From NCBI RefSeq assembly GCF_002001105.1, contig NZ_MUNP01000076.1, positions 1 to 32,880 of the forward strand: 32,880 bases of DNA, given 5' to 3'. The stretch is from Rhodanobacter sp. C06. GTDB taxonomy: Bacteria > Pseudomonadota > Gammaproteobacteria > Xanthomonadales > Rhodanobacteraceae. The position numbers and the translations under genes were made by a program. Below are positions 12,456 through 27,416 of the stretch, one piece after another. The first letter of the stretch is position 1. Every line of letters begins with the position of its first letter. The notes under the pieces were generated by a model that saw only the letters and a program-made list of their open reading frames with translations, was not told the origin of the DNA and ran no database searches.

Positions 12456-13064
12456 ATGTCCCTGATGACCTATCTCGCCCTCGGCGACTCCTACACCATC
12501 GGCGAAGGCGTGCCGGCGGCGGGCCGCTGGCCCGTGCAACTGGCCGCCGCGCTGCGCGACGAGGGCGTGCCGCTGGCCGAGCCGACCATCCTCGCCACCA
12601 CCGGCTGGACCACCGACGAGCTGTCCGCCGCGATGGCTGCGGCCGGCTTTGTGCCGCCCTGGGACCTGGTCAGCCTGCTGATCGGCGTCAACAACCAGTA
12701 TCGCGGCCGCGCCGTGGCGGAGTATCGCGGCGAGTTCCGCCGCCTGCTGCAGCGCGCGATCACCCTGGCCGGCGACCGCGCCGACCGCGTGCTGGTGCTG
12801 TCTATCCCCGACTGGGGCGTCACCCCGTTCGCCCGCGACTGCGGCCGCGACATCGCGCGCATCGCGGCGGAATTGGATGCGTACAACGCCGCCGCCCATG
12901 ACGAGACCTCGCATCGCGGTGCCGGCTGGACCGACATCACGGCGATCTCGCGCCGGCAGGCCAGTCTGCTTGCCGGCGACGGGCTGCATCCCTCCGCGGC
13001 GCAGTACGCGTTGTGGGCCGAGGCCGCGTTGCCGGTGGTTCGCGACATGCTGGAAACTTCCTGA
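12456..13064 (+). CDS. SGNH/GDSL-family hydrolase
   Basis: This is a 202-residue esterase-like protein with no signal peptide. Block I 'LALGDSYTIGEG' gives the nucleophile S12, block III 'LLIGVNNQ' gives the oxyanion Asn, and block V 'DGLHPS' gives D175 and H178, so the catalytic set is complete. Family members hydrolyse lipids, acyl-CoA or sugar acetyl esters; the substrate here is unknown. The ribosome-binding site is weak. The 3' end of this gene is repeated as a remnant at 20961-21060, marking one boundary of a segment duplication. Confidence 0.9.
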   Translation: MSLMTYLALGDSYTIGEGVPAAGRWPVQLAAALRDEGVPLAEPTILATTGWTTDELSAAMAAAGFVPPWDLVSLLIGVNNQYRGRAVAEYRGEFRRLLQRAITLAGDRADRVLVLSIPDWGVTPFARDCGRDIARIAAELDAYNAAAHDETSHRGAGWTDITAISRRQASLLAGDGLHPSAAQYALWAEAALPVVRDMLETS

Positions 13065-13076
13065 GCCATTGCCGTT

Positions 13077-13096
13077 ATTCCCGCTTTCGCGGGAAT
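13077..13096. repeat. Intergenic hairpin repeat (ATTCCCGC...GCGGGAAT)
   Basis: An exact 8-bp stem (13077-13084 with 13089-13096) lies 12 nt after the GDSL hydrolase stop. The motif is a common dispersed proteobacterial intergenic repeat. It may help terminate the hydrolase transcript, though no T-run follows. The corresponding position ahead of the second Grx4 copy lacks it, so it was inserted or lost after the duplication. Confidence 0.55.
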
Positions 13097-13175
13097 GACG
13101 AGCAAAACCAACTTGAAGCCGCGCGGCGGCGCCGCATATCGGCGGTATCATCATGTGTCCCCTCCGGAGTTCCCC

Positions 13176-14063
13176 ATGTCTCTCGACACCGCCACCCGCG
13201 AACGCATCGAAACCCTGCTCAAGAGCCACCGCGTGGTGCTGTTCATGAAGGGCAACCGGTCCCAGCCGGCCTGCGGCTTCTCCGCCGCCGCCACCAACAC
13301 GCTCAACGAGCTGTTGCCGGACTACCACACGGTGAACGTGCTGGAAGATCCGGAAATCCGCGAGGGCATCAAGGCCTACGGCGACTGGCCCACCATCCCG
13401 CAGCTCTACGTCGAAGGCGAGCTGGTCGGCGGCGCCGACATCATCCGCCAGATGTACGGCAGCGGCGAACTGCACACGCTGTTCGGCGTCGCCGCGCCGG
13501 ACCGCACGCCGCCGGAAATCACCATCACCGACGCCGCCGCCAAGGCGATCCGCGAAGGCACTGCGAACGCGCAGGGCCTGGCGCTGCACTTGGAGATCGG
13601 CCCCGACCACAGCGCCGGCTTCCAGCTCGCCCCGGCCGGCGAGCACGACATCGTGGCGCACGCGAACGGCCTGGAAGTGCACTTCGACCCCGCCAGCGCC
13701 CAGCGCGCCAAGGGCATCGTGATCGACTGGGTCTCCACCGTGCAGGGCGAAGGCCTCAGCCTGAAATTCCCCGGCGCGCAGGAAGTGAAATCGCTCACCG
13801 TGCAGGAATTGCAGCAGCGCCTCGCCGCCGGCAGCATCGTGTTGATCGACGTACGCCCGGCCGCCGCCCGTGCCCAACTGCACGCGCTGCCGCAGGCGCG
13901 CATCCTCGAAGACGAAGGCTACGAGGCGCTCGCCGCCCTGCCCAAGGACACCGAACTGGCCTTCGTCTGCCAGCGCGGCATCTCCAGCCAAGGCGTGGCC
14001 GAACGCTTCGCCGCGCACGGCTTCAGCCACGTGCACAACGTGGCGGGCGGCATGGAAGCGTGG
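13176..14063 (+). repeat. Near-identical 888-bp direct repeat, copy 1
   Basis: This stretch matches 21121-22008 without gaps; by eye I count about 15 base differences (about 98% identity). It covers almost all of the Grx4 gene. Identity drops sharply at the 3' end, in the last codons. The copies are in direct orientation, 7,945 bp apart, so recombination between them could delete or duplicate the DNA between. Confidence 0.93.
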
Positions 14064-14084
14064 GCGGCCGAGATCGGCCACTGA
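13176..14084 (+). CDS. Grx4-type monothiol glutaredoxin fused to A-type-like and rhodanese domains (copy 1)
   Basis: This 302-residue cytoplasmic protein has three parts. Residues 1 to about 105 are a monothiol glutaredoxin with the CGFS motif (C33), 'GDWPTIPQLYVEGELVGGADI' and the Grx4 fold used to bind and pass [2Fe-2S] clusters. Residues about 110-200 resemble IscA/HesB A-type carriers ('ITITDAAAKAIREG', 'GLEVHFDP', 'GIVIDWVSTVQGEGLSLKFPGA') but lack the Cys ligands. Residues about 205-302 are a rhodanese domain with active-site C265 in 'CQRGISS'. A role in Fe-S cluster or sulfur handling is likely from the family. CCGGAG lies 6 nt before ATG 13176. It is almost identical to a second copy at 21121. 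Confidence 0.92.
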   Translation: MSLDTATRERIETLLKSHRVVLFMKGNRSQPACGFSAAATNTLNELLPDYHTVNVLEDPEIREGIKAYGDWPTIPQLYVEGELVGGADIIRQMYGSGELHTLFGVAAPDRTPPEITITDAAAKAIREGTANAQGLALHLEIGPDHSAGFQLAPAGEHDIVAHANGLEVHFDPASAQRAKGIVIDWVSTVQGEGLSLKFPGAQEVKSLTVQELQQRLAAGSIVLIDVRPAAARAQLHALPQARILEDEGYEALAALPKDTELAFVCQRGISSQGVAERFAAHGFSHVHNVAGGMEAWAAEIGH

Positions 14085-14121
14085 TCGGCGGTTCGACGCC
14101 ATCCTGAGGAATCCGCGACAC

Positions 14122-15729
14122 ATGGCGCCCAACCCTCCTGTTTCAGCAACGCCCGGCCATACTGCCGGCTTGTCGCCCACCGCCACGCGCCTGCTGGCCG
14201 AGGCCAGCCGCGCGCTGGGCAACGAACGACTCGACGATGCCGAAAGGGCACTGATCGGCGTGCTGGCGATGGCCCCCGATCACGCCGAGGCGCACCGCAT
14301 GCTGGGCATCGTCTGCCAGATGCGCGGCGAACCCGCGAAGGCGGTGGAATACCTGCAGCAGGCGCTCGCGCTCGCTCCGGACAATCCCGTCCTGCACACC
14401 AACCTCGGCACCGCGCTGTACGAATGCGGCCAGATCGACGCCGCGCTGGCGGCGTTGCAGCGGGCCTGCGAACTGGCCCCGCGCATGGCGAGCTCCTGGT
14501 ACAACCTGGGCAAGGCGCTGAAACTGCAATACCGCGCCGCGGACGCTTGCCAGGTGTTGCAGCTGGCCCTGCGCCTCGACCCCGCGCACACCCGATCGCG
14601 CATTACCCTGGCGGACGCGCAGGCGATCCTGGGCGACATTCCCGCCGCAGTGGCGAACTACCGCGAAGTGTTGCGCCGCGAACCGATGGAACCCAATGTC
14701 TGGTTCGCCCTTGCCAACCTGAAAACGCTGGCGTTCGACGACCGGGACCTCGCCCAGTTGCAACGGGCGTTCCACCAGCCCGGGGCAACGGCGGATGCAC
14801 GGGTTCGGATCGGCTTTGCCCTGGCCAAGGCCTGCGAGGACCATCGCGACTACGCCGGAGCCTATGCCGCCCTCGGCGAAGCCAATGCGCTGAAGCGCCG
14901 TGAAGTGGGCTGGAACGCCCAGGCCGAGCGCAAGCGGGTCGAACAGATCATGCAGGCGTTCACCGACCCCGTGACCGCGCCGCTAGACACGCGCCTGGGC
15001 CAGGAGGCGATCTTCATCGTCAGCCTGCCGCGCACCGGCTCCACCTTGGTCGAACAGATCCTCGCCTCGCATTCGCAGGTGGAGGGCGCCAACGAGATCA
15101 CCGATCTGCCCCAGGTCATCGAGGACGAGTCGAAGCGGCGCGGCATGCCGTTTCCGCACTGGGTCGCCGAGGCCACCGCCGCGGACTGGGCACGACTGGG
15201 TCGCGACTACCTCACACGCACCGCCCGCTGGCGGCAGGCGCGTCCGCGCTTCACCGACAAGAACCTGGTCACCTGGCAGTACGTCGGCGCGATCCGCGCC
15301 ATGCTGCCCGGCGCACGCATCGTGCACTGCCACCGCGACCCGCTGGAAACCTGCTTCGCCTGCTACCGCCAGCTGTTCAGCAACGGCGCCCACTTCAGCT
15401 ACGACCTCGACGACATGGTGATGCACCATCAGGACTACCAGCACCTGATGGGCCACTGGCTGGCCAGCTACCCGCAGCACCTGCTCGACTTCCCGCACGA
15501 GGCCCTGCTGGCTGATTCCGAATCGTGCATCCGTCGCTTGCTGGACTTCTGCGGCCTCGACTTCGATCCCGCCTGTCTCCAGCCGCACCAGACCGTGCGC
15601 GCCGTGCACAGCACCGCCAGCGCGGCGCAGGTGCGCCAGCCGCTCAAGGCCGGGGTCAGCTACCGCGAGCGCTACGGCGAACTGCTGCACCCACTTCGCG
15701 AGCGCCTGGCAAGCAGCACCGGCGGCTGA
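14122..15729 (+). CDS. TPR-containing sulfotransferase (copy 1)
   Basis: This is a 535-residue predicted cytoplasmic protein. Residues about 15-235 are tetratricopeptide repeats ('AEAHRMLGIVCQMRGEPAKAVEYLQQALALAP', 'SSWYNLGKALK' and others), a protein-binding scaffold. Residues about 290-530 are a sulfotransferase domain (Sulfotransfer_3 type): the 5'-phosphosulfate loop 'LPRTGSTLVEQIL' (PRTGST at 303-308) and the 3'-phosphate site 'IVHCHRDPLETCFACY' (R405), followed by 'YPQHLLDFPHEALL'. It should transfer sulfate from PAPS; the acceptor is unknown. The ATG at 14122 has GAGGA 11 nt upstream. It follows Grx4 by 37 nt and converges on the receptor gene across a shared terminator. A diverged paralogue is at 22024. 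Confidence 0.88.
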   Translation: MAPNPPVSATPGHTAGLSPTATRLLAEASRALGNERLDDAERALIGVLAMAPDHAEAHRMLGIVCQMRGEPAKAVEYLQQALALAPDNPVLHTNLGTALYECGQIDAALAALQRACELAPRMASSWYNLGKALKLQYRAADACQVLQLALRLDPAHTRSRITLADAQAILGDIPAAVANYREVLRREPMEPNVWFALANLKTLAFDDRDLAQLQRAFHQPGATADARVRIGFALAKACEDHRDYAGAYAALGEANALKRREVGWNAQAERKRVEQIMQAFTDPVTAPLDTRLGQEAIFIVSLPRTGSTLVEQILASHSQVEGANEITDLPQVIEDESKRRGMPFPHWVAEATAADWARLGRDYLTRTARWRQARPRFTDKNLVTWQYVGAIRAMLPGARIVHCHRDPLETCFACYRQLFSNGAHFSYDLDDMVMHHQDYQHLMGHWLASYPQHLLDFPHEALLADSESCIRRLLDFCGLDFDPACLQPHQTVRAVHSTASAAQVRQPLKAGVSYRERYGELLHPLRERLASSTGG

Positions 15730-15763
15730 AGCAACCTCCCCTCCGCACACCCGGTCCACGCAA

Positions 15764-15789
15764 AAGGCCGCCGGTTTCCCGGCGGCCTT
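15764..15789. terminator. Bidirectional intrinsic terminator between sulfotransferase and receptor genes (copy 1)
   Basis: An 11-bp GC-rich stem (15764-15774 with 15779-15789) with loop TTTC is followed on the plus strand by T-rich 'GCTTGTTTGTTG' and on the minus strand by TTTTG. It lies between two convergent genes and can serve both. The same element occurs at the same place in the second copy. Confidence 0.85.
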
Positions 15790-15819
15790 GCTTGTTTGTT
15801 GCCTTGCTCGTTTGCCCGT

Positions 15820-15845
15820 CTGCGCCGGGATGTACCCCGGCGCAG
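15820..15845 (-). terminator. Hairpin just after the receptor stop codon
   Basis: An exact 10-bp stem (15820-15829 with 15836-15845) with a 6-nt loop begins 14 nt after the receptor stop on the reverse strand. It lacks a T-run, so it may protect the mRNA 3' end or assist the stronger terminator next to it. Confidence 0.45.
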
Positions 15846-15859
15846 GCGGCGATCAAGCC

Positions 15860-18800
15860 TTACCAGTCGTAGGTCACGCCCAAGGTCATGTAGCGCGGCG
15901 TCTCCGACGCGTAGATCGAGTTGTAGGTCGAACGCGGGTTGGTCGTGCTGCCGTAGTTCGCCCGGTACTGCGTTGCCTTCTGCTCGTTGAACACGTTGTG
16001 CACCTGCAGCTGGAAGGCCAGCTTCTTGTCCGCCCACTCCGGCCGGTATTCGACGCTGAGGTCCAGCGGATGGATCCACGGCGTATAGCCCGTCGTGCCG
16101 CTCGGCGCCGGCACGCCGCCGCACCAGTGGGTGTAGTCGCCGTAGCCCAGCCCCGGGTTGGTCTGGTCCGGACCGTAGTAGCCCAAGCAGGCCTTCGGCG
16201 TACCCGAAGCCACCGTCAGGATGCCGCTGGCAGTCCATTCCGGGGCGATCTGGTAGGTGCCGTAGGCCTTCAGCACGTGCTTGCGCGAGTTTGCCTGCAC
16301 GCCGTTCGCGTACTGCATCAGCTGGCCGTAGTCCCACTGCGTGGTGGCCGACACCGAGTTGCCACCCTGGCCGATGTTCGACTGTACCGGGCCGTCCGTC
16401 GAGCCGTAGCTCTTGGAGAACACGTAGTCGATCTTGCCCTGCCACTTGCCGTCCCACGGATGCTCCAGGTAGGCCTCCAGCGCGTAGTACTTGCGCTTGG
16501 CCGCCGGGAAGCCGAACTGCGCCGGCGACACGGTGTAGTAGTTGTAGCCGCCGTTGTCGTTCTTCACCTGGAAACGGTTGGTCGAACCCGGGTTGATCAG
16601 CACGCTGGCCTGGATGTTGCCGCAATCCACGCCCGGCACGCCCGGGTTCTGCGCCATCAACTGCGCGCACTGGGTGGTGGTGTCGCCGACATCGTCGACG
16701 ATGCGACCCAGCCTGCGCACGGTAGCCTGTACGCCGTACACATAGGCTGGCGTGATCTGCTGCTGCATGCCCAGCACGAACTCGTCCTGGTACTCAGCCT
16801 TGAGGTTGGTCGAGCGCACGGTATTCGGGTCGAGCGGCTGGCCGTACTCGTTGTTGGCCGACACCGGCTGACCTGCGCTGGTGACGTTGCCCAGGCCGGT
16901 ACCGACGATCGGGGTCAGGTTTTGCGGGATGCCGTTCGCATCGATGCCCGAGTAGGTGTAGTAGGTGCGCGTGTACAAGGAGCCGGATGCCTCACGAATC
17001 GCCACGCCGGACGGCAGTGCCAGGTAGTAGCGACCGGCATTGCCGTATACCTTCAACGTGGAGTCGCCGAACACATCCCAGCTGAAGCCCAGACGCGGCG
17101 CCCACTGCGGCTTGGTCAAGCGCACGTAGGCGACGCCATCGGGGTTGTAGTTGGTGAACTGATCATCGCGCAGGCCGAGGTTCAGCAGCAGGTTGGGCAG
17201 CACCTGCCAGTTGTCCTGGACGTACTGCGCGCGCTGGCTCACTTTCACCGTGCTGTTGGTGATGAAGCGGTACTGGTCGACGTAATAGCCTGACGCACCG
17301 TTCGGGTAGTTGGCAGTGGCGTCCACGAACGGCGCCGTGCCAACGACCGAGCCGGCGATCGGCTTGGTGGCGCTGGGCGCCTGGGCGTATTCCCACGCAT
17401 AGCCCGGGCCGCTCATCGCACTGCCGGCACCGATGTCCATGGTGGTCATGTTGTCGATACCGAACTTGATATCGTGCTGGCCCAGTTTCCAGTCCAGGTC
17501 GAGGCGCAGGTTGGTGGTGCTCGACTTGTGGCCGGGGTTGGGGATGTTGGTGTTGGTGTTGCTGTTGCTGATGCCGCCCGGGCTGCCGCCGGTGTAGGCC
17601 GGGTTCTGCGAGGACGCGCCGAGGATGTTCGGCAGGGTCGGATCGAAGCCAGCGTAAGGAATGACCTCGGTGTAGTAGGTGCCCGTCATCTTGCCGTACA
17701 TCGCCTCGAGGCTGAGGTTGTCGGTGATGTACGAGGTGTACTTGGCGATCCAGATGCCGAAGGCATTCTTGGTGTGCTGGTCGTAGCTGCTGAAGCTACC
17801 CACCGAGTTCTGGGCGTAGTTGTTCCCCGGCGCATTGTTGTAGTTGTAGATGGAGGCGGAATAGGACTGCTGGTTCCTCACGCCGGTCAGCGACAAGGTG
17901 TTGTTGTCGTTGATGTTCCAGTCCAGCTTGGCGTAGAACTTCGGCATGCTGTACTGGCGGTAGTACACGTTGCTCAGGCCGACCGACTGGACCGCCGTGG
18001 TCTGCTGCTTGTCGGACTCCGCCGAAATGAAGAAGAACAACTTGTCCTTGATCAGCGGGCCGCTGATGTAGGCGTCGTAGATGTTTTCCCAGCTGGTGTT
18101 GCGGTTGCGGAAGTCGTAGATGCTGCCGGCCGTGCGACCCGGGGTGGTCACCAGCGGGTTGTTGTAGTGGTAGTTGATGTAATTGCTGCGCAGAGCCATC
18201 GGGGCAAACTGTGCCTGGCCACCGAAGTGCCAGTCGTTGGTGCCGCTCTTGCCGATCTGGCTGATCACGCCACCGGCGGAGCGCCCGTATTCGGCGCCGT
18301 AACCGCTGGTGAGGGTTTCCTGCTGGGCGATCGAACCGTACGGCAAGGTGATGCCGCCCGAATTGCCCAGCGGGTCGGAGGTATTGAAGCCGTTGATGTA
18401 GTAGGCGTTCTCGGCCACCGAGGAGCCACCGAAGGACACCAGCGGTTCACCAGTAGGACCAGCGCCCAGCTCGGACGCACCCGCCACCGTACCCGGAGCC
18501 AGCAACGCGATCGCCTCGCCGCTGCGCGCCAGCGGCAGGTGCTTGAGCTGCTCGGCGGTGATGACCGAGGCCTCGCGGGTCGAGGTCACGTCGATCGCCG
18601 GCAGGGCGTTGCCCGTGACCGTGACCGTGGACAGGTTCTGCGCGTTCTTCGCGTTTGCGCCAGCCTCGGTGAAGTTGACCGCCTGCGCGCCCGACACCCT
18701 CGGCGTGATGTTGGCCTGCGACTGCACCACGTTGCCGTTCTGCAGCAGGTTCACGGTATACGTGCCCACCGGCACCGTCACCGTGTAGTGACCCGCGCTA

Positions 18801-19009
18801 TCCACCGGCACCGTGCGGTTGAAACCGGAGCCACCGACGATCTGCACGGTCTCGCCGGCCGCGACCGGTGCGGTGCCGAAGATCGTGCTGGTGGTGGCCT
18901 GCGCCAGCACCTGCCCTGACAGACCGACACCGGCAGCGATGGCCACCGCCAGCGCGGTGCGGCGCACCGTGGAACGACGCACCACATTATTGAGTTTCAT
19001 GGCATTCAT
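15860..19009 (-). CDS. TonB-dependent outer-membrane receptor with carboxypeptidase-regulatory-like N-domain (copy 1)
   Basis: This is a 1,049-residue outer-membrane protein. The signal peptide spans residues 1-36 ('VLAQ' cleavage region). Next come a small beta-sandwich of the carboxypeptidase-regulatory type (about 40-125, 'DSAGHYTVTVPVGTYTVNLLQNG'), a TonB-box-like 'STVTVTG', and a plug with 'NAYYINGFNTSDPLGNSGG' and 'SGYGAEYGRSAGGVISQIGKSGTN'. A long Tyr/Asn-rich barrel ends in the aromatic residue W ('YDW'), as outer-membrane barrels do. The type resembles Oar-like receptors; the ligand is unknown. ATG 19009 was chosen because GGGGAG lies 11 nt upstream and the same signal-peptide start is conserved in copy 2. 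The gene converges on the TPR-sulfotransferase. Confidence 0.92.
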   Translation of the reverse strand: MNAMKLNNVVRRSTVRRTALAVAIAAGVGLSGQVLAQATTSTIFGTAPVAAGETVQIVGGSGFNRTVPVDSAGHYTVTVPVGTYTVNLLQNGNVVQSQANITPRVSGAQAVNFTEAGANAKNAQNLSTVTVTGNALPAIDVTSTREASVITAEQLKHLPLARSGEAIALLAPGTVAGASELGAGPTGEPLVSFGGSSVAENAYYINGFNTSDPLGNSGGITLPYGSIAQQETLTSGYGAEYGRSAGGVISQIGKSGTNDWHFGGQAQFAPMALRSNYINYHYNNPLVTTPGRTAGSIYDFRNRNTSWENIYDAYISGPLIKDKLFFFISAESDKQQTTAVQSVGLSNVYYRQYSMPKFYAKLDWNINDNNTLSLTGVRNQQSYSASIYNYNNAPGNNYAQNSVGSFSSYDQHTKNAFGIWIAKYTSYITDNLSLEAMYGKMTGTYYTEVIPYAGFDPTLPNILGASSQNPAYTGGSPGGISNSNTNTNIPNPGHKSSTTNLRLDLDWKLGQHDIKFGIDNMTTMDIGAGSAMSGPGYAWEYAQAPSATKPIAGSVVGTAPFVDATANYPNGASGYYVDQYRFITNSTVKVSQRAQYVQDNWQVLPNLLLNLGLRDDQFTNYNPDGVAYVRLTKPQWAPRLGFSWDVFGDSTLKVYGNAGRYYLALPSGVAIREASGSLYTRTYYTYSGIDANGIPQNLTPIVGTGLGNVTSAGQPVSANNEYGQPLDPNTVRSTNLKAEYQDEFVLGMQQQITPAYVYGVQATVRRLGRIVDDVGDTTTQCAQLMAQNPGVPGVDCGNIQASVLINPGSTNRFQVKNDNGGYNYYTVSPAQFGFPAAKRKYYALEAYLEHPWDGKWQGKIDYVFSKSYGSTDGPVQSNIGQGGNSVSATTQWDYGQLMQYANGVQANSRKHVLKAYGTYQIAPEWTASGILTVASGTPKACLGYYGPDQTNPGLGYGDYTHWCGGVPAPSGTTGYTPWIHPLDLSVEYRPEWADKKLAFQLQVHNVFNEQKATQYRANYGSTTNPRSTYNSIYASETPRYMTLGVTYDW

Positions 19010-19235
19010 GAGATTAAAAACTCCCCAGCGAAATAAAGACGACTTCTTAACTGCAAGCAGGCATGGCAACGTCTTGGCATCTGCCAGAGACCCACCATGC
19101 CCCCTAAAGCGCGGCACCGGAAATCAAGCAAGTCGAACTAACAGGCCAGACATCTCTAGAAACATCCGAACCGGGATCATCCATCGCAAGATTGTGGTCA
19201 CGGCCTGCATGCAAACTGCCTTCGTGCCCACCGAG

Positions 19236-19263
19236 ATTAAACATCTGCCTAACGTAAAGTCAA
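19236..19263 (-). promoter_or_regulatory. Predicted promoter of receptor copy 1, with a leader of about 225 nt
   Basis: Reverse strand: -35 TTGACT (19258-19263), 16-nt spacer, -10 TTTAAT (19236-19241). The equivalent region of copy 2 shares the -35 exactly, the spacer length and most spacer bases, so the element is conserved between diverged genes. The interval to the start codon at 19009 (19010 to about 19230) has no gene. Apart from the GGGGAG site and the bases around it, the two leaders differ. Confidence 0.6.
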
Positions 19264-19478
19264 CAATCAAGAAGTTGCGAATTTATGTAGAAAGCGCATT
19301 ATCTTTCTATTAATCAGGAATATTTTACGATTTGCGAACCCGTCGCTTCCATAACCCCTGTCAAAACCCCTGTGCACCCGGCCTTCGATACAAGGTGGCA
19401 GAAGCACTCCTGAAGACCGGGCACCACTGCATCGGCCCGCGCCGCGTCGAACCCATACGGGTCTGGCCAAGTCGCAGC
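19264..19478. other. A/T-rich intergenic region upstream of receptor promoter 1
   Basis: No gene is seen. The part next to the promoter (19264-19335) is strikingly A/T-rich for this genome and similar in character to the region beyond promoter 2, so it may work as an UP element or regulator-binding region. Two direct 'AACCCCTGT' repeats lie at 19353-19373. The ChaN-like gene ends at 19479. Confidence 0.45.
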
Positions 19479-20774
19479 TCAGTGCGCGGCGATCTGGATA
19501 GTGGCTTCACCAAGGGTTTTGCCGGCCACGTCCCATGCACGCAGCCGATACGTGCCCACGCGCAGGAACAGCTCGCTGGCTGCCGGCGCGTGCAGAAAGG
19601 TGTAACGGTCGGCCGGGATTGCATCGTCTGGCTCGCTGCCGTAACGCGCCTCTACCACGCATGGGGTCACGCCATGGCACAGCCCGGTATCGATGGGCCA
19701 TCTCTGCCGCTCTCCGCCTAGCGACAGCCAGTCCGGCCGCTGCTGCCCGCGCATGGGCGGCAGTACCACGCTCACGTCATGACGCCACGGGTCGGAGCTC
19801 CAGGTGCGGTTGCCCTCGTGAAGCTGCAGCACAAAGGGCTGGTCCATCTCCATGACATCGATGATCTGGTGATACGGGTCGGCATGCGGCGACGGCTCGA
19901 CATCACGAAACTGGGTCTGGTCGACAGACAGCGGCTCCAGGCCAGTGAGCTTCTGCAGGCGCATGGCCATGGGCTCGATGCCTCCAAGGTGCCCCTTGGC
20001 CTTGTCGATGTGCGCATAGCCGGCCATGACGAACAGACGCGCATGCGGATCGCGGACGAACACCTTGCGGTCGAGATTCTCGGCCTGGGCATCGTCGCGG
20101 TCGGCCACCTGGTTGATGGGGTCGTACGCCACGATGGTGTAGCCGAGCCGGATGGCTTCCCGCAGGATGTCCCCGTACAGTGGCTCCCTCAAGTATTCGG
20201 TGCCACTGCTTTCGATGGGGTAACCCCGGCGCATGAGCGCGTTCCCGCTTTCGGTGAGGGCTTCCGCGGCAAAATAGTCGTAGCCCAGCGCACGCAGACG
20301 CGGCAGCAAGGCAAGAATGAGCACGCGGGTGTGCGGATCATCGTGCGCTTCGTTGACCAGTACGATGCGCCGCTTGACGGCCAGCTTGGCAACCGCATCC
20401 GCCGCATTGACCGCGATGACATTGCCGGCGCCATGCACCTCGGAAATGATGCCGTAGGCGGCGTTGTCCAGCGCCTGACTGACCCATGGCAGGGGGCGGC
20501 GCAGCGCGATCCGGTCATCGAACGGAAAGTCGCGTATCGCCAGATCGTACAATCCCAGCTCGCAGTCCACGGTGGACAGCAGTTGGCGGGCAAAGGATTG
20601 GTCGGACGCGGACAAGTCCGGCATGCGGGCGAGCAGGTACTGGCGCCGTGCCAAGTCGTTGGCTTGTGCGCGGAACCGGCTGAGCAGTTCATCCTCCGTC
20701 TGTGCATGGGCACTGGTGAGGCACCCCAGGGACATGATGCAGAAAAGAGCAAAAGCGAAGATACGCGCTGCCAT
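19479..20774 (-). CDS. Secreted protein with a ChaN/Tiki-like domain
   Basis: This 431-residue protein has a signal peptide (residues 1 to about 24, 'LGCLTSAHAQ'). The central domain (about 130-270) has the pattern 'RRIVLVNEAHDDPHTRVLILALLPRLRALG', then 'YDYFAAEAL', 'EAIRLGYTIVAYDP' and 'RLFVMAGYAHIDKAKG', resembling the ChaN/Tiki/EreA group with its Glu-x-His motif. ChaN of Campylobacter is a haem-binding lipoprotein paired with a TonB receptor, so association with the adjacent receptor is possible. That is inference, and no lipobox is evident at the mature N-terminus. The C-terminal part (about 300-431) is unrecognised. GAGGTGA lies just before ATG 20774. The gene is inserted between the two duplicated blocks and has no second copy. 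Confidence 0.65.
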   Translation of the reverse strand: MAARIFAFALFCIMSLGCLTSAHAQTEDELLSRFRAQANDLARRQYLLARMPDLSASDQSFARQLLSTVDCELGLYDLAIRDFPFDDRIALRRPLPWVSQALDNAAYGIISEVHGAGNVIAVNAADAVAKLAVKRRIVLVNEAHDDPHTRVLILALLPRLRALGYDYFAAEALTESGNALMRRGYPIESSGTEYLREPLYGDILREAIRLGYTIVAYDPINQVADRDDAQAENLDRKVFVRDPHARLFVMAGYAHIDKAKGHLGGIEPMAMRLQKLTGLEPLSVDQTQFRDVEPSPHADPYHQIIDVMEMDQPFVLQLHEGNRTWSSDPWRHDVSVVLPPMRGQQRPDWLSLGGERQRWPIDTGLCHGVTPCVVEARYGSEPDDAIPADRYTFLHAPAASELFLRVGTYRLRAWDVAGKTLGEATIQIAAH

Positions 20775-20960
20775 GGAATGGACTCACCTCTCTGCCTGAC
20801 AAGCAGCTTGACAGCGGGCGACTCGACGACACAAGCGCCAATTGTCTCGATTTGCCGTCTTCCCAATGTTCTCCACCGGCTTGCCTGCAACCCGCGCTCG
20901 GTTTCGCGAAGATCGAGGTTTCGGCAACCCGCGAGCAGCACCACGCGTGGATCTCCCCGC
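20775..20960. other. Intergenic region between ChaN-like gene and the second block
   Basis: No gene is seen. It should hold the promoter of the reverse ChaN-like gene, but no clear -35/-10 pair was recognised. Homology to the first block starts only at about 20961. Confidence 0.4.
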
Positions 20961-21060
20961 TGACGACGGCCTGCACCCCTCGGCCGCGCAGTACACGCTG
21001 TGGGCCGAAGCCGCGTTGTCGGTGGTTCGCGACATGCTTGCGGCCGCGCCTGCGGCTTGA
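20961..21060 (+). pseudogene. Remnant of the GDSL hydrolase 3' end
   Basis: The translation 'DGLHPSAAQYTLWAEAALSVVRDML' matches the last residues of the hydrolase at 12456-13064 ('DGLHPSAAQYALWAEAALPVVRDML'). It holds the block V Asp-His but neither the Ser nor the Asn block, and nothing homologous lies upstream. It cannot be a working hydrolase. It marks the left edge of the duplicated segment and points to the first block as the ancestral position, because only there is the hydrolase complete. Confidence 0.85.
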
Positions 21061-21120
21061 AGCCGCCAACGGGCGCCAGCATATCGGCGGTATCATGGCG
21101 TGTCTCTTCCGGAACCCCCC

Positions 21121-22008
21121 ATGTCTCTCGACACCGCCACCCGCGAACGCATCGAGTCCCTGCTCAAGAGCCACCGCGTGGTGCTGTTCATGAAGGGCAA
21201 CCGGTCCCAGCCGGCCTGCGGCTTCTCCGCCGCCGCCACCAACACGCTCAACGAGCTGTTGCCGGACTACCACACGGTGAACGTGCTGGAAGATCCGGAA
21301 ATCCGCGAGGGCATCAAGGCCTACGGCGACTGGCCCACCATCCCGCAGCTCTACGTCGAAGGCGAGCTGGTCGGCGGCGCCGACATCATCCGCCAGATGT
21401 ACGGCAGCGGCGAACTGCACACGCTGTTCGGCGTCGCCGCGCCGGACCGCACGCCGCCGGAAATCACCATCACCGACGCCGCCGCCAAGGCGATCCGCGA
21501 AGGCACGGCGAACGCGCAGGGCTTGGCGCTGCATCTGGAAATCGGCCCCGACCACAGCGCCGGCTTCCAGCTCGCCCCGGCCAGCGAGCACGACATCGTG
21601 GCGCACGCGAACGGCCTGGAAGTGCACTTCGACCCCGCCAGCGCCCAGCGCGCCAAGGGCATCGTGATCGACTGGGTCTCCACCGTGCAGGGCGAAGGCC
21701 TCAGCCTGAAATTCCCCGGCGCGCAGGAAGTGAAATCGCTCACCGTGCAGGAACTGCAGCAGCGCCTCGCCGCCGGCAGCATCGTGTTGATCGACGTACG
21801 CCCGGCCGCCGCGCGTGCCCAGCTGCCCGCGCTGCCGCAGGCGCGCATCCTCGAAGACGAAGGCTACGAGGCGCTCGCCGCCCTGCCCAAGGACACCGAA
21901 CTCGCCTTCGTCTGCCAGCGCGGCATCTCCAGCCAAGGCGTGGCCGAACGCTTCGCCGCGCACGGCTTCAGCCACGTGCACAACGTGGCGGGCGGCATGG
22001 AGGCCTGG
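21121..22008 (+). repeat. Near-identical 888-bp direct repeat, copy 2
   Basis: This is the partner of 13176-14063, in direct orientation. Homology continues upstream at lower identity through the shared 'GCATATCGGCGGTATCAT' and the hydrolase remnant. Downstream it continues only as diverged paralogous genes. Confidence 0.93.
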
Positions 22009-22020
22009 CACTCAGCCTGA
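21121..22020 (+). CDS. Grx4-type monothiol glutaredoxin fused to A-type-like and rhodanese domains (copy 2)
   Basis: This 299-residue protein has the same three domains and key residues as the copy at 13176 (CGFS Cys33; A-type-like domain without Cys ligands; rhodanese 'CQRGISS'). Protein differences up to Trp 296 are few: Thr13 to Ser, Gly to Ser in 'APASEHD', and His to Pro in 'AQLPALPQ'. The C-terminus then differs ('WHSA' instead of 'WAAEIGH'). The ribosome-binding site is weaker (CCGGAA instead of CCGGAG), so expression may be lower. The next gene starts 3 nt after the stop, suggesting translational coupling with the sulfotransferase. Confidence 0.92.
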   Translation: MSLDTATRERIESLLKSHRVVLFMKGNRSQPACGFSAAATNTLNELLPDYHTVNVLEDPEIREGIKAYGDWPTIPQLYVEGELVGGADIIRQMYGSGELHTLFGVAAPDRTPPEITITDAAAKAIREGTANAQGLALHLEIGPDHSAGFQLAPASEHDIVAHANGLEVHFDPASAQRAKGIVIDWVSTVQGEGLSLKFPGAQEVKSLTVQELQQRLAAGSIVLIDVRPAAARAQLPALPQARILEDEGYEALAALPKDTELAFVCQRGISSQGVAERFAAHGFSHVHNVAGGMEAWHSA

Positions 22021-22023
22021 ACC

Positions 22024-23586
22024 ATGTCTCCGCCTCCAACCTCTGCCCATATCGGCCAGTTGATGGCGGAAGCCGGCAAGGCGCTCGGCCAAGGCCGGCT
22101 TGACCATGCCGAGCGCGCGCTGACGCAGGTACTGGCTGCAAATCCCGCGCTGACCGACGCTCAATACCTGTACGGCGTTGCCTGCCTGATGGGTGGCCAC
22201 GCCGCCAAGGCTGCCGACTGGCTGCGCAAGGCCGTCGCGCAGCGGCCCACCGACGCCAACATGCGGACCTATCTGGGCTGCGCCCTGCACGATGCCGGCG
22301 CCTTGGACGAAGCGCTGATTCATCTGCGTCGCGCCTGTGAGCTGGCGCCCGGGCAGGCATCGAACTGGTACAACCTTGGCAAGGCACTGAAACAGCGGGG
22401 TCAATTGCGCGATGCCGACGAGGCCTTTCGCCACACGCTGAGCCTGGACGAACGGCACCCGCTGGCGCGGATCGGCGTAGCCGACATCGCCACCATGCAA
22501 GGCGACATTCCGCGTGCCGTGGCCGAGTATCGGCATGTGCTTCGCCTGCAACCCGGGCGCGCCGAGGCGTGGCACGGGCTGGCCAACCTCAAGACCGAAT
22601 CGCTGAGTCCTGCTGATGTCGAGCAGCTCCGCCAGACCTTGCGTCAACCGGGCATCCAGCCCGACGTGCGGGTGATGCTTGGTTTCAGCCTGTACCGGGC
22701 CCTGGAGGACCAGCACGACCACGCCGGCGCCTTCGAGGCGCTGCACCAGGCAAATGCGGACAAGCGCCGCCTGGTGGAGTGGGATGCCGCTGCGGAACAT
22801 TCGAAGATCGACCGCATCATGGAAGCCTTCCGCGCGCCCGTGCCTGCACCGATGGATCCGGCGCTGGGCCACGAAGTCATCTTCATCGCCAGCATGCCGC
22901 GTTCGGGTTCCACGCTGGTCGAGCATATCCTTGCCACGCATCCCGACGTCGAGGGCGCCAACGAAATCCCCGACCTGCCCCAGGTCATCGAAGACGAATC
23001 GCGCCGCCGCGGCCAGCCCTTCCCGCAGTGGGCAAGCGAAGCCACCACCGACGATTGGCACCGACTCGGCAAGGACTACCTGGCCCGTACCGCATGCTGG
23101 CGCGAGCGAAGCCCTCGCTTCACCGACAAGAACGTCGCCAACTGGCCACTGCTGGGCGCCGTACGCCTGATGCTGCCGGGCGCAAGAATCATCCACTGCC
23201 ACCGCGATCCGGTGGAGACCTGCTTCTCCTGCTATCGCCACCTGTTCCGGCATGGAGTGTCTTACAGCTACGACCTCGACGAGATGGCCGAGTGCTACCG
23301 CGACTACGAACGTCTCAGCGCGTTCTGGCTCGCACGCCATCCGCAGCACGTGCTCGACTACTCCTACGAAACACTGGTACGCGAGCCGGAAGCGCAGATC
23401 CGCCGCCTGCTCGCGTTCTGCGAGCTGCGTTTCGATCCCGCCTGCCTCACGCCGCACCAGACCCAACGCGAAGTGCTGAGCACGGCGAGCGCGGCGCAGG
23501 TGCGCGAGCCCATCCGCGCCGACACGTCGCACAGCGCGCCATATATGGAATGGTTGCGGCCGCTTCACGAAAGATTCGGACGCTGA
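22024..23586 (+). CDS. TPR-containing sulfotransferase (copy 2)
   Basis: This 520-residue protein is a diverged paralogue of the 14122 gene with the same order. TPRs span about residues 10-225 ('SNWYNLGKALKQRG', 'DIPRAVAEYRHVLRLQPGRAEAWHGLANLK'). The sulfotransferase domain follows, with 'MPRSGSTLVEHIL' (PRSGST at 292-297) and 'IIHCHRDPVETCFSCY' (R394). The PAPS-site residues are conserved while the TPR part differs more, as expected if the copies recognise different partners. The start lies 3 nt after the Grx4 stop. It converges on receptor copy 2 across a terminator like that of the first block. No secretion signal is present. Confidence 0.88.
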   Translation: MSPPPTSAHIGQLMAEAGKALGQGRLDHAERALTQVLAANPALTDAQYLYGVACLMGGHAAKAADWLRKAVAQRPTDANMRTYLGCALHDAGALDEALIHLRRACELAPGQASNWYNLGKALKQRGQLRDADEAFRHTLSLDERHPLARIGVADIATMQGDIPRAVAEYRHVLRLQPGRAEAWHGLANLKTESLSPADVEQLRQTLRQPGIQPDVRVMLGFSLYRALEDQHDHAGAFEALHQANADKRRLVEWDAAAEHSKIDRIMEAFRAPVPAPMDPALGHEVIFIASMPRSGSTLVEHILATHPDVEGANEIPDLPQVIEDESRRRGQPFPQWASEATTDDWHRLGKDYLARTACWRERSPRFTDKNVANWPLLGAVRLMLPGARIIHCHRDPVETCFSCYRHLFRHGVSYSYDLDEMAECYRDYERLSAFWLARHPQHVLDYSYETLVREPEAQIRRLLAFCELRFDPACLTPHQTQREVLSTASAAQVREPIRADTSHSAPYMEWLRPLHERFGR

Positions 23587-23593
23587 AACGAAC

Positions 23594-23619
23594 AAGGCCG
23601 CCAGTTTCCCGGCGGCCTT
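23594..23619. terminator. Bidirectional intrinsic terminator between sulfotransferase and receptor genes (copy 2)
   Basis: The stem AAGGCCGCC/GGCGGCCTT (23594-23602 with 23611-23619) has loop AGTTTCCC and is followed by GTTTATC on the plus strand. It corresponds to the element at 15764-15789 with one stem change. Confidence 0.8.
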
Positions 23620-23642
23620 GTTTATCCTGCTTCTCGCCTCCC

Positions 23643-23673
23643 CCTGACGCCATCGACTTGCGATGGCGCCAGG
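23643..23673 (-). terminator. Hairpin after receptor copy 2
   Basis: A 13-bp stem with one G-T type mismatch (23643-23655 with 23661-23673) and a 5-nt loop begins 17 nt after the receptor stop on the reverse strand. No T-run follows. Its position matches the 15820-15845 hairpin of the first block, but the sequence differs. Confidence 0.45.
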
Positions 23674-23689
23674 CGAGGGAGCTGTCTTC

Positions 23690-26600
23690 TTACCAGTCGT
23701 ACTTGACGCTGAACTCTGCGAACCGCGGCTGCTCCACCGCATACCCCGTGACGCCGCCGATCGGCAGCTTGTACGCGGTGTCCGGTGCACCACCCACGCC
23801 ATCGTGGGTAACGATGTAAGCCGTGTCGTGCTGCTCGTTGAACACGTTCTGGACCTGCACCTGCAGAGTCAGGTGCTTGCCGGCCCACTCCGGGATGTAG
23901 CTGACGGACAGGTCGAGCTTATGGGTCCAAGGCGTATGGCCGGCCTTGCCCGGAGGCGACGGCATACCGTCGCACCAGTGGTAAGCCTCGCCGTAGCCGT
24001 CCGGATCGGTCTGGCCCGGCCCCCAAGCACCCAGGCAGGTAATGGGCGCACCCGACTGGACGATATACAGGCCGCTGACCAACCACTCGGGGGTGATCGC
24101 GTAGGTGCCGTAGGCCTTCAGCGTGTGGCGATGCGAGTTCGGCAGCTCGCCGTTCGAGTACTGCATCAGTTCGGGGAAGTCCCAAGCCTCGCTGATCGAG
24201 GCGGACTGGCCGCCACCGGCAGCGGCCGAGGCATTGGAGATCTGGCCGAGCGGCGAGTAGGTCGGGCCTTCCGTGGTGCCGTAGCTCTTGGCGAACACGT
24301 AGTCGATCTTGCCCATCCACTTGCCGTCCCACGGATGCTCGAGGGCTTCTTCCAGGCTGTAGTACTTGCGGAACGCTGCGGGGAAGCCCACGACATTTCC
24401 TGCAGCAGACGCGGTGTGCGGGTTCCAGATGTAGGTCTTGTAGGTACCGTCGGTCGCCAGATAGCGCACTTGGTTGCTGCGCCCGGGGTTGACCAGGATG
24501 TCCGTCTGGAACGCGGTCGGATTCGCGTCGGCAGGCATATTGACGGTACCGGTGTCGTCGATGATGTTGTTCATCCTCGAGTAGGTCGCCTGCGAGGTCC
24601 AGACCAGCGACTGGCCGAACGCGTTGAGCGTCTTCTGGAAACCCAGCACGTACTCGTCCTGGTACATCGGCTTCAGATCCGAGGCGGCAATCGTCTTCGG
24701 GTCCTTCGGCGTGCCGTACTCACCGTCGGGCGAGTATGGCGTCGCGCTCGTGTGAACCGATGTCAGGCCCTGCGGAATGCCGTTCGAATCGATGGACGAG
24801 TAGGTGTAGTACTCGTTGAGGTAGGCATTGGCGCCTGCCATGCGCACGCCGAGGCCCGTGGGCAAGGCAAGGTAGTAACGCCCCACGTTGCCATACAGCT
24901 TGGCGCTGCTGTCACCGAAGATGTCCCAGCTGAAGCCCAGGCGCGGCTGCCACTGCGGCGAGGTCTCCCGGATGTAGGGTTGATTGCCTGCGCTGTAGTT
25001 GGTGAACTGGTCGTTGCGCAGGCCGAGGTTCAGCAGCAGGTTCGGCGTGACCTGCCAGTTGTCCTCGATGTATTGCGCCTTCTGCTCCACCGTGAACGAG
25101 GCCACGCCGCCATACGTCCGCTTCACGACGTAGTAGCTGTTACCGCCCACCGCACCGCCATTGGGGTAGTTGATCGGGTTGTCGACGCACTGGCCCAGGG
25201 CGTTGCACGACAGGGTAGGCGAGGAGAAGTTCTTCGACCCTTCCTTGCCGTAGATCCAGTAATACCCCGGACCGGCGCTCTGGCTGCCGTCGCTGATGTC
25301 CGTGCTGCGCATGTTGTCGATACCGAACTTCACGTCGTGATCGCCCAACTTCCAGTCGAGGTCCAGACGGAAGTTGTTCTCGGTCGACTTGTGGTCCGGA
25401 GAGGGAATGGTAAGCGGGTTGTTGTTCGTGTTGCCGGAGCCCGGAACGGTCGGGTTCTGGTTTGAAACGCCAGATATGCCGGCCAGCAGTACATCGAAGC
25501 CCGGATAGGCCACTTGCTGGCTGTAGTACGTGCTCTTCATCTTGCCGGCCAGCACACTCAGCGTGAGGTTGTCGGTGATGTACGAGGTGTACTTCAGGAT
25601 GCCGATGTCGAACTTGCTCGAGTACAGCGGATTGTTGATGGAGTTGAAACTGCCGATGCTGTTGTTGCTGTAGTCGTAGTTGTAGGCGTTGTTCGAGAGG
25701 TCTTCTTCCTTGCTCGAGGCGTAGGTGGCTTCAAGGACGTTGCTGTCGTTGATGTTCCAGTCCAGCTTGCCGTAGAGCTTAGGTGAGGTGGTGCTGTGCG
25801 AGTTGTAGTAAGGCGCATTGACCGAGCCGGTGGACTTGGTACTGTCGTGCTGGGCCTCGGCCGTGATGTAGAAGAACAGCTTGTCCTTGATCAGCGGGCC
25901 CGAAATGTAGGCGTCGTAAACCGTGCTCCAGTCTTCGTTCTTGCGGCGATTGACGTAGATGTCGCCTGGCTGCTGGCCCGCCGTGGTCGACGCCGGGTTC
26001 GCGTAGTAGATGTTGTCGTAGCCGCTTTGCGCCCAAGTCGGCGCCCAAGTCACATAGGCGCCAGCATGGAAGTCGTTGCCCCCGCGATGGCCGATCTGGC
26101 TAATCACGCCGCCGGTGGAGCGGCCGTATTCGGCGCCGTAGCCGGAGGTAATGGTCTGCTGCTCGGCGATGGCGAAGTACGGCAGGGCGATGCCGCCCGC
26201 GTTGCCCACCGGGTCGGTGGTGTTGAAGCCGTTGATGTAGTAGGCGTTTTCCGCCGTCGAGTCGCCACCGAAGGAGATCAGCGGGGTACCGGCCGGGCCG
26301 GTGCCCAGACTGGCGTTGCCGCCGGCGACACCCGGCGCCAGCACGGCGATGGATTCGGCGTTGCGCGCCAGCGGCAGCGTCTTCAGCTGCTGCGCAGTGA
26401 TCACCGAGGTCTGGCGGGTGGAGGACACGTCGATCGATGGCAACGAGTTGGCCGTGACCGTGACGCTGGAGAGGTTCTGCACGTTTTTGCCGGCTTCGGC
26501 AACGGCAAACGGTACTGGCGTACCGCCCGCTACGCTCACCGTCACATGATCCTTCGTGGCAACCACGTTGCCACCCTGCATCAGCGACACGGTGTAGTCA

Positions 26601-26851
26601 CCCACCGGCAACTGGTTGGCGCCATAGCGACCGTCGCTGCCGACCGCCACCTCGCGGGTCAGGCCGGTCTGGTTGTTGACGATGCGAACCGTCTCGCCCG
26701 CCGACACCGGCGCGGTACCGAACACGGAACCGGTGGTGGCCTGCGCCAGCACCTGCCCGGACAAACCGACGCCTGCGGCGATGGCCAGAGCCAGCGCGGT
26801 GCGGCGCACCGCGGAGCGACGCGCCCCGTTGTTGAACTTCGTGGAATTCAT
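23690..26851 (-). CDS. TonB-dependent outer-membrane receptor with carboxypeptidase-regulatory-like N-domain (copy 2)
   Basis: This 1,053-residue protein is a paralogue of the 15860 receptor. The signal peptide (residues 1-36) is nearly identical to that of copy 1. It is followed by the small beta-sandwich ('GDYTVSLMQGGNVVATKDHVTV'), a TonB-box-like 'SSVTVTAN', a plug ('NAYYINGFNTTDPVGNAGG', 'YGAEYGRSTGGVISQIGHRGGN') and a barrel ending in 'YDW'. The plug and periplasmic strands are well conserved between the copies, while many barrel segments, presumably extracellular loops, differ, which suggests different ligands. GGGGAG lies 11 nt before ATG 26851. The gene converges on the TPR-sulfotransferase. 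Confidence 0.92.
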   Translation of the reverse strand: MNSTKFNNGARRSAVRRTALALAIAAGVGLSGQVLAQATTGSVFGTAPVSAGETVRIVNNQTGLTREVAVGSDGRYGANQLPVGDYTVSLMQGGNVVATKDHVTVSVAGGTPVPFAVAEAGKNVQNLSSVTVTANSLPSIDVSSTRQTSVITAQQLKTLPLARNAESIAVLAPGVAGGNASLGTGPAGTPLISFGGDSTAENAYYINGFNTTDPVGNAGGIALPYFAIAEQQTITSGYGAEYGRSTGGVISQIGHRGGNDFHAGAYVTWAPTWAQSGYDNIYYANPASTTAGQQPGDIYVNRRKNEDWSTVYDAYISGPLIKDKLFFYITAEAQHDSTKSTGSVNAPYYNSHSTTSPKLYGKLDWNINDSNVLEATYASSKEEDLSNNAYNYDYSNNSIGSFNSINNPLYSSKFDIGILKYTSYITDNLTLSVLAGKMKSTYYSQQVAYPGFDVLLAGISGVSNQNPTVPGSGNTNNNPLTIPSPDHKSTENNFRLDLDWKLGDHDVKFGIDNMRSTDISDGSQSAGPGYYWIYGKEGSKNFSSPTLSCNALGQCVDNPINYPNGGAVGGNSYYVVKRTYGGVASFTVEQKAQYIEDNWQVTPNLLLNLGLRNDQFTNYSAGNQPYIRETSPQWQPRLGFSWDIFGDSSAKLYGNVGRYYLALPTGLGVRMAGANAYLNEYYTYSSIDSNGIPQGLTSVHTSATPYSPDGEYGTPKDPKTIAASDLKPMYQDEYVLGFQKTLNAFGQSLVWTSQATYSRMNNIIDDTGTVNMPADANPTAFQTDILVNPGRSNQVRYLATDGTYKTYIWNPHTASAAGNVVGFPAAFRKYYSLEEALEHPWDGKWMGKIDYVFAKSYGTTEGPTYSPLGQISNASAAAGGGQSASISEAWDFPELMQYSNGELPNSHRHTLKAYGTYAITPEWLVSGLYIVQSGAPITCLGAWGPGQTDPDGYGEAYHWCDGMPSPPGKAGHTPWTHKLDLSVSYIPEWAGKHLTLQVQVQNVFNEQHDTAYIVTHDGVGGAPDTAYKLPIGGVTGYAVEQPRFAEFSVKYDW

Positions 26852-26932
26852 GAGATTGAAAACTCCCCAGTGAAAATGACGGCATTCTTTGATTGCTGGC
26901 CGACACGGCGTTGCGTGGCCCTGCCTGGTTCC

Positions 26933-26953
26933 TGCGCACTCCCCCAGTGCGCA
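26933..26953 (-). promoter_or_regulatory. Hairpin in the receptor copy 2 leader
   Basis: An exact 8-bp stem (TGCGCACT with AGTGCGCA) around CCCCC lies about 80 nt upstream of the receptor start, inside the predicted untranslated leader. It could affect mRNA stability or translation. The copy 1 leader has no identical hairpin. Confidence 0.45.
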
Positions 26954-27028
26954 CACCCATCTGGAACGAAACCATGTCGAGCCGCAGCAACCGCATTGCA
27001 TCCAGCGCATCGCTAGAAGCGCATCGAC

Positions 27029-27056
27029 AGTAAACATCCGTCTAACGCAAAGTCAA
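27029..27056 (-). promoter_or_regulatory. Predicted promoter of receptor copy 2, with a leader of about 170 nt
   Basis: Reverse strand: -35 TTGACT (27051-27056), 16-nt spacer, -10 TTTACT (27029-27034). The -35 and spacer closely match promoter 1, so both receptor genes keep the same control region. The leader runs from about 27022 to 26852. Confidence 0.58.
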
Positions 27057-27416
27057 CAAACAAGAAATCGCGATTTATTCTTTATAAACTAGCTATTTAC
27101 GCAATATTTTTCGATATTTTGAGATGAACGGTATATGTTGCGTGCACCTCGTAAAATCACGCGCGAATGATCGCATTGCAACATGGCAACCTCGATATCT
27201 GCATGACCCATGTCGTTGCATGCAATGGCATGCACCGTCTTGCATCGGAGGCAATCTGGCCGGCCAAAGTGCTTATTTGAAATTTCGCCTCGGCCGCACA
27301 TATTTGCGGCAACAACATTCGGGAAATGTCAGGCGACACGCAGTCGGTACATGGCCTGTTGCATTGACTGGATCATGCCAAGGCGGCATTCGAAACCCGC
27401 CACGCCAGGCCTCACC
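27057..27416. other. Intergenic region upstream of receptor promoter 2
   Basis: No gene is seen. The first 65 or so bases are very A/T-rich ('TTTATTCTTTATAAACTAGC', 'GCAATATTTTTCGATATTTT') and could act as an UP element. A 10-bp palindrome TTGCATGCAA lies at 27216-27225, amid several TGCA repeats. Short open frames here have no good start signals or protein-like composition. Confidence 0.45.

Follow-up and report, generated by a model that had tools for sequence, protein, structure and literature searches.

A repeated sulfotransferase and TonB-receptor arrangement in Rhodanobacter sp. C06 and its probable origin in a variable receptor locus

The stretch of DNA analysed here (the window) comprises 32,880 nucleotides of Rhodanobacter sp. 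C06 (assembly GCF_002001105.1, contig NZ_MUNP01000076.1) and is exactly one contig (C35) of a 4.14-Mb draft genome in 82 contigs, with a completeness of 99.99% and an estimated contamination of 2.25%. It carries two blocks, each composed of a gene for a three-domain Grx4 protein, a gene for a sulfotransferase with tetratricopeptide repeats (TPR-sulfotransferase, ST) and an opposing gene for an Oar-like TonB receptor (TB); the suffixes a and b denote blocks 1 and 2, and gene calls were checked against Pfam. In block 1, Grx4 copy 1 (13176..14084, plus strand; glutaredoxin, Fe-S_biosyn-like and rhodanese domains, with PF00462 and PF00581 matched and PF01521 at 25.9 bits, slightly under its cut-off of 26.3) is followed by STa (14122..15729, plus; PF13469 2.3e-40 plus TPR), a terminator-like hairpin (15764..15789) and TBa (15860..19000, minus; PF25183, PF07715), which is preceded by a promoter-like site recognised by pattern match (19241..19263, minus). 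Block 2 consists of Grx4 copy 2 (21121..22020, plus; 98% nucleotide identity to copy 1), STb (22024..23586, plus; PF13469 7.5e-41), the same hairpin (23594..23619), TBb (23690..26851, minus) and its promoter-like site (27034..27056, minus). Both receptors contain plug and barrel, with PF07715, PF25183 and PF00593 above cut-off, and the N-terminal carboxypeptidase-regulatory-like extension is represented in TBb by a PF13620 match of 29.0 bits (cut-off 32.3) and unmatched in TBa at 0.001.

The original prediction described this arrangement as one old tandem duplication of a functional three-gene unit, and its descriptive part was confirmed by self-alignment and pattern searches. Gene order and strands are equal in the two blocks (Grx4 plus, ST plus, TB minus), with the terminator between ST and TB. 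The terminator AAGGCCGCCNGTTTCCCGGCGGCCTT, allowing up to two mismatches, has two sites in the genome, at 15764 and 23594, and the promoter-like TTGACTTTNCGTTAGNCNGATGT, allowing up to three, likewise has just the two receptor sites, both on the minus strand; reversed-pattern controls gave 0 matches for each search. Homology extends beyond Grx4, since ST, TB and upstream parts all align. The segments 12977-14063 and 20964-22008 are 92.5% identical over 1088 columns (44 gap columns), the receptor upstream regions 19226-19286 and 27019-27078 share 82%, and the ST and TB genes are open reading frames that have diverged as homologues (67-69% nucleotide identity; 67.1-68.7% over aligned pieces of 1.2-2.2 kb). 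The Grx4 coding parts are 98.3% identical over 296 codons, far more alike than the Grx4 leaders, and their longest exact shared run, 349 bp, lies within a near-identical repeat of 0.9 kb. Block 2 also holds a 3' piece, about 75-87 bp long, of an SGNH-hydrolase gene (remnant at 20952..21038, plus, the start of the repeated block; 85% identical to 12965-13051), and the repeat therefore begins inside that gene. The blocks are separated by an extra gene (19479..20774, minus), whose product has no Pfam family at E<=0.01 and which has no counterpart beyond block 2. This 431-residue protein has relatives of 50-53% in three congeners (G005, G006 and G009), on contigs other than that of Grx4, and stretches matching its family, between one and four per genome, occur in every one of 14 congeners but G011.

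The age of the repeat differs among its parts. Synonymous divergence (dS) between the Grx4 copies is 0.057, compared with 1.08 for STa/STb and 0.62 for TBa/TBb, where the non-synonymous divergence is also high (0.41). Either Grx4 copy stands at a dS of 0.19-0.21 from its homologue in G010, the closest relative compared, and the corresponding values against the ST and receptor of slot 1 in that genome (described below) are 0.24 for STb and 0.16 for TBb. Because these values differ, a single duplication is insufficient without later homogenisation of Grx4. Copies made by a tandem duplication are expected to be nearest to each other and equally old throughout, and the two blocks depart from this on both counts, so that the single old duplication proposed for the whole block was not upheld.

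Comparison with G010, whose genome is in 2 contigs, reveals separate histories for receptor promoters and receptor bodies. The interval in G010 also holds two positions, of which slot 1 contains Grx4-ST-TB and slot 2 an ST remnant and TB. Window positions 20958-26873 are collinear with slot 1 at 93.6%; STb shares 90% of its amino acids with the slot-1 ST and the TBb body 97% with the slot-1 receptor, yet the upstream match of TBb to this slot is just 52 bp. The upstream region of TBb instead resembles slot 2 (88.6% over 421 bp), whose receptor is 54% identical in protein, and the whole stretch from TBb upstream through a neighbouring hydroxylase gene matches that slot. Conversely, TBa shares 86% over 397 bp of upstream sequence with slot 1 (78-96% across 18971-19330) and 52% in protein. 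Its body is related to another receptor of the same genome, C8:48608-51715, with 79% amino-acid identity and 58-95% nucleotide identity over 26 steps of 120 bp, 22 of them at >=75%, whereas four upstream steps at 35-54% are unrelated. When the two window receptors are compared as a quartet with the two of G010, upstream informative sites support grouping by slot, by body and by genome at 73, 6 and 1 positions, and coding sites at 9, 287 and 17, the preference switching at about 18971, in the signal-peptide region. Sites pairing the two window receptors against G010 amount to 18 of 393, and a control quartet of two other receptor loci behaved orthologously at 194 of 194 upstream and 925 of 934 coding sites.

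In the receptor tree, TBa is sister to the C8 receptor, with one from G003 C11 next, and the sister of TBb is the slot-1 receptor of G010; TBa and TBb fall in different clades spread over the genus, joined at a node with a support of 0.26. In the ST tree, computed with Dyella left out, STa is sister to the entire STb clade (support 1.0), and the split of the sulfotransferases is therefore older than the sampled congeners. Dyella silvatica carries a convergent pair resembling STa and TBa (64% and 67%); the surrounding 21.6 kb contain no Grx4. A short convergent ST remnant lies about 1.2 kb from the C8 receptor, so that C8:47172-51715 (L206) is a decaying ST-receptor module. At G003 C11 (L207) and G004 C34 (L152), pieces of the flanks share 83-88% of nucleotides and the receptors 56% of amino acids, which makes this a possible further locus of body exchange.

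The surroundings of Grx4 in relatives place these mosaics in a wider interval. Upstream of copy 1, which forms the conserved left side of slot 1, lies the intact SGNH/GDSL hydrolase gene (12456..13064, plus; PF13472 1.6e-19), a core neighbour present in 11 of 13 mapped congener loci; the exceptions, in G008 and G011, are contigs starting at Grx4. The right side is formed by AMN (28845..29636, minus; nucleoside-phosphorylase family, PF01048 1.6e-32), which we take to be AMP nucleosidase. Among 15 genomes of the genus, the three-domain Grx4 protein was found in 14, with two copies in the present genome and one in each of the 13 others, and was not detected in G007; no second full-length match occurs among the matches listed for 60 relatives. 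Of the 13 congeners readable at this place, ten have ST and/or TB homologues immediately after Grx4 (G001, G002, G003, G004, G006, G008, G009, G010, G013 and G014); G005, G011 and G012 have none there, with G011 readable over 6.1 kb. In seven of the ten, AMN lies beyond the ST/TB module; G003 and G004 reach contig ends, and the AMN of G001 falls outside the stretch examined. Where both flanks are visible, the interval ranges from <0.1 kb (G012) to 10.9 kb (G014), and in Dyella acidiphila the corresponding interval contains a receptor together with STa-like (61%) and TBa-like (59%) genes. The Grx4 proteins have a common GGM segment at the rhodanese end, followed by a differing tail and spacer, the tails of copy 2 and G010 being equal. 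Grx4 belongs to the core flank, not to the unit itself, and the conserved flanks enclose non-orthologous contents across related species, as at loci of cassette exchange.

Scored against the window promoter, nine receptors reach >=19/28, all of them after Grx4 (two in the window, two in G010 and one each in G002, G003, G008, G013 and G014), a threshold that single shuffled controls also attained; the receptor of G004 has no upstream sequence. Between the SGNH and Grx4 genes, a palindrome, ATTCCCGC-N4-GCGGGAATGAC at 13077-13099, was considered as a multicopy repeat of this genome and rejected, as it has one site here. It matches in 35 of 59 genomes of the family (the present one included), one other having 21 forward and 25 reverse matches.

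The association between sulfotransferases and receptors extends well beyond this interval. The ST loci examined are those surrounding Grx4 and those surrounding STa matches (E<=1e-40) in G000-G022, and 109 of 112 ST reading frames were evaluated, three fragments <350 bits being excluded; the receptor search relied on models derived from the two window receptors plus seven seeds, which other families may escape. A TonB receptor lies within 800 bp of 55 of the 109 STs, in convergent order at 32, receptor then ST at 16, ST then receptor at 1 and divergent order at 6. Within 12 genomes of the genus, this applies to 37 of 65 STs, compared with 0.95 expected from a receptor-density estimate based on PF07715 counts in the same genomes, and to four of six STs in the present genome. 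Of the suggested unit, the neighbourhood of ST and TB is thereby supported, recurring well above chance, and membership of Grx4, single-copy in the congeners, is not. Simple co-transcription is disfavoured as the cause of adjacency because convergent, co-directional and divergent orders occur. With the queries used, a receptor was found beside the ST in seven of 17 loci from named relatives (L224, L225, L228-L231 and L235) and not in ten. In four of six Phenylobacterium loci, and likewise in Henriciella, it lies divergently beside the ST, identified by Pfam in L228, L229 and L235 and by similarity in L228-L231 and L235; L232 and the fragment L238 of the Phenylobacterium set have no receptor in this position. 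One further locus, L178 (G010 C1:2455235-2463341), contains a series of three TPR-sulfotransferases that closes with a convergent TonB receptor of a different type.

Pairwise distances of STs and receptors are correlated over all 39 Oar pairs (r 0.38, 0 of 2000 permutations as high), among convergent pairs (r 0.56, n=21, 0 of 2000; within the genus r 0.41, n=18, 30 of 2000), among receptor-then-ST pairs (r 0.87, n=12, 0 of 2000) and among divergent pairs (r 0.84, n=6, 20 of 2000). The linkage is strong, but the partners are not fixed.

In the structure model of STb (pLDDT 90.4), a TPR superhelix similar to the one in O-GlcNAc transferase (OGT) is joined to a domain resembling tyrosylprotein sulfotransferase (TPST). 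Among the best 50 Foldseek matches, the TPST structures 8w5z (rank 29, E 4.1e-7, TMt 0.54) and 5wrj (rank 42, E 1.1e-6, TMt 0.66) are outranked by TPR proteins. When the catalytic part was compared with PDB sequences at E<=0.1, seven of 11 matches were protein-tyrosine sulfotransferases, the best being 8w5z (6.6e-9). The PRxGxT loop, which binds 3'-phosphoadenosine 5'-phosphosulfate (PAPS), and the 3'-phosphate motif are present, as they are in other sulfotransferases; in the alignment of 109 STs, STb residues R293, G295, T297, L298 and R394 are conserved at 98, 99, 91, 97 and 100%, and in a set of 16 sequences G295, L298 and R394 are invariant and R293 is conserved at >=90%. R293, E314 and K369 (98, 99 and 97% conserved) align with the R, E and K of TPST 8w5z, which presumably correspond to the catalytic Arg/Glu/Lys R78/E99/K158 of TPST2. 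No signal peptide or anchor was seen on inspection of the ST by eye, and PAPS is cytoplasmic, so the target, whether receptor precursor, peptide or metabolite, should be met in the cytoplasm.

Alternatively, the substrate of the ST might be a small molecule, such as a metabolite that is scavenged or exported, and the enzyme would share no more than regulation or history with the receptor, an account to which we give somewhat less than even chances. It agrees with the second-best PDB sequence match, the polyketide sulfotransferase CurM (3.7e-6), and with another polyketide-synthase sulfotransferase among the 11; with the swapping of partners; and with tyrosine content, for which an enrichment in adjoining receptors was rejected (6.28% in 38 ST-adjacent receptors versus 6.29% in 19 non-adjacent ones, a few of the latter having an ST, or what is left of one, at a distance of 0.8-1.2 kb). 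The predominance of protein-tyrosine sulfotransferases among the matches, the resemblance of the TPR superhelix to the protein-modifying OGT and SPINDLY, and adjacency in all three gene orders speak against it. A TPR-fused aspartyl/asparaginyl beta-hydroxylase, encoded in the window beyond the second receptor (27417..28733, minus; PF05118 4.7e-50), recurs near TPR-sulfotransferases (L043, L049, L058 and L224) and is possibly a second TPR-guided modifying enzyme.

Taken as a whole, the region between Grx4 and AMN is likely to be a variable receptor locus in which ST-TB bodies have been exchanged behind retained promoters. Because upstream and body histories conflict and switch at the signal peptide, the bodies were probably exchanged under the promoters, with Grx4 copy 2 carried along as a passenger of the STb-TBb block. 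The species and G010 would each possess two expression slots with their own promoter regions, between which, and with modules elsewhere, a body made up of the variable Grx4 tail, the TPR-sulfotransferase, the terminator and the receptor coding sequence would be traded. Homologous recombination is the route we infer, and its homology arms were probably the conserved Grx4 frame, to the left, and the conserved signal-peptide/promoter region of the receptor, to the right. Most probably, a two-slot locus is older than the split from G010; after it, a slot-1-type block of about 5.9 kb (SGNH tail, Grx4, STb and TBb body) would have been copied into slot 2, duplicating Grx4. The right end of the block would have been joined through homology of the signal-peptide region, whereas no homology is evident at its left end, 20958. 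Slot 1 would have gained the STa-TBa body, related to the C8 receptor and the Dyella pair, earlier or later, and the donor could be either another strain or another place in the genome.

Several observations weigh against this explanation. Of the 109 STs, as many as 54 lack a receptor within 800 bp. Strict co-evolution of ST and receptor was rejected, nearest partners agreeing in just 9 of 18 convergent pairs of the genus, and the receptors of G006 C22 and G009 C28:51465 are 88% identical with STs in different clades. Five receptors after Grx4 (in G001, G006, two in G009 and the second of G014) score 13-15/28 and lack the shared promoter, which therefore cannot serve as the mark of every receptor there. 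The C8 receptor, at 79% amino-acid identity, is too distant to be the direct donor of the TBa body. For the left junction at 20958 the window offers no long homology, so that it must be illegitimate or unexplained, and with G010 as the sole close relative compared, more than one direction and order of events would agree with the data. The CurM match and the missing tyrosine enrichment count here as well.

A much older duplication, predating the genus and followed by exchange, may also underlie the arrangement. An old tandem duplication of the whole block, in which Grx4 was later homogenised by gene conversion as ST and TB diverged, appears improbable to us. It would account for the equal order, terminator and promoter, the latter two found nowhere else in the genome, for the position of STa as sister to the STb clade, and for Grx4 frames so much closer than their leaders, as in a conversion tract; however, TBa and TBb belong to different genus-wide clades (joined at the node of support 0.26), few informative sites unite them, a similar STa-TBa pair occurs in Dyella, and upstream and body histories conflict. 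An assembly chimera, to which the near-identical Grx4 repeat with its 349-bp run, the coincidence of window and contig and the estimated contamination might point, is very improbable, given the independent presence of two slots in the two-contig G010 genome, the high completeness and the joints, where exact shared runs of at most 30 bp in the comparisons made (30 bp for the TBa start versus C8, 27 bp for TBa versus the TBb start, and 19 bp for 20850-21060 versus the rest of the window) render a short-read misjoin unlikely.

The findings hint at a joint role of receptor and enzyme, and at a locus through which the bacterium can replace its receptors. Most likely, the ST would be a cytoplasmic TPR-guided sulfotransferase with a TPST-like active site, whose target belongs with the neighbouring receptor and would be that receptor's precursor or its ligand, and exchange of bodies would then change receptor specificity under fixed regulation. 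The broader proposition, that such enzymes are dedicated modifiers of TonB receptors or their peptide ligands, in a tyrosine-sulfated form of outer-membrane transport, and that the Grx4-AMN region is a site of receptor diversification with bodies swapped behind fixed promoters and signal peptides, is speculative and rather unlikely to hold in full. Diversification might perhaps be under selection by phages or bacteriocins that use the receptors.

Among known systems, OGT and SPINDLY share with the ST an N-terminal TPR superhelix and a transferase head, but the catalytic domain of the ST is a sulfotransferase rather than a glycosyltransferase. TPST (PDB 5wrj, 8w5z) appears to share the catalytic fold, the PAPS motifs and the conserved residues aligned with Arg/Glu/Lys, as far as sequence and model comparison indicate, whereas the ST is bacterial, fused to a TPR superhelix and apparently free of signal peptide or anchor. 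In Xanthomonas, the bacterial sulfotransferase RaxST is described as needed for tyrosine sulfation of a peptide recognised by a plant receptor (PMC3071791); it is likened to the ST by description, not by sequence, and the available sections of that article mention no pairing with a TonB receptor. Oar-like receptors of Xanthomonas are described as having an extension between signal peptide and plug, seven of nine extended Xcc receptors being called Oar-like (PMC1790865); the available main text of that source contains no word starting with 'sulfo', and the extension model PF13620 scores below cut-off in TBb and finds no match in TBa. No published pairing of an ST with a TonB receptor was found in open-licence PMC literature, and it is absent from the available sections of PMC10017367, PMC12662623, PMC11732741, PMC6180160 and PMC3071791. 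Up to 57 TonB-receptor plug domains were counted per genome searched, 39 of them in the present genome. To our knowledge, the ligands of most TonB receptors are unknown. Body exchange under a fixed promoter and signal peptide would be one way to re-tune such repertoires, and the recurring TPR-TPST-like neighbour provides the concrete hypothesis that sulfation is part of receptor function. Cassette exchange between conserved flanks is characteristic of capsule and O-antigen loci, which likewise have core genes on either side, a variable middle and exchange through flanking homology; in the window, by comparison, an ST and a receptor together make up the variable body, and the right crossover would lie inside the receptor gene, so that promoter and signal peptide are kept. 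Genome plasticity of this kind is known; at this locus it comes with an unusual cargo and a recurrent, as yet unexplained link between enzyme and receptor.

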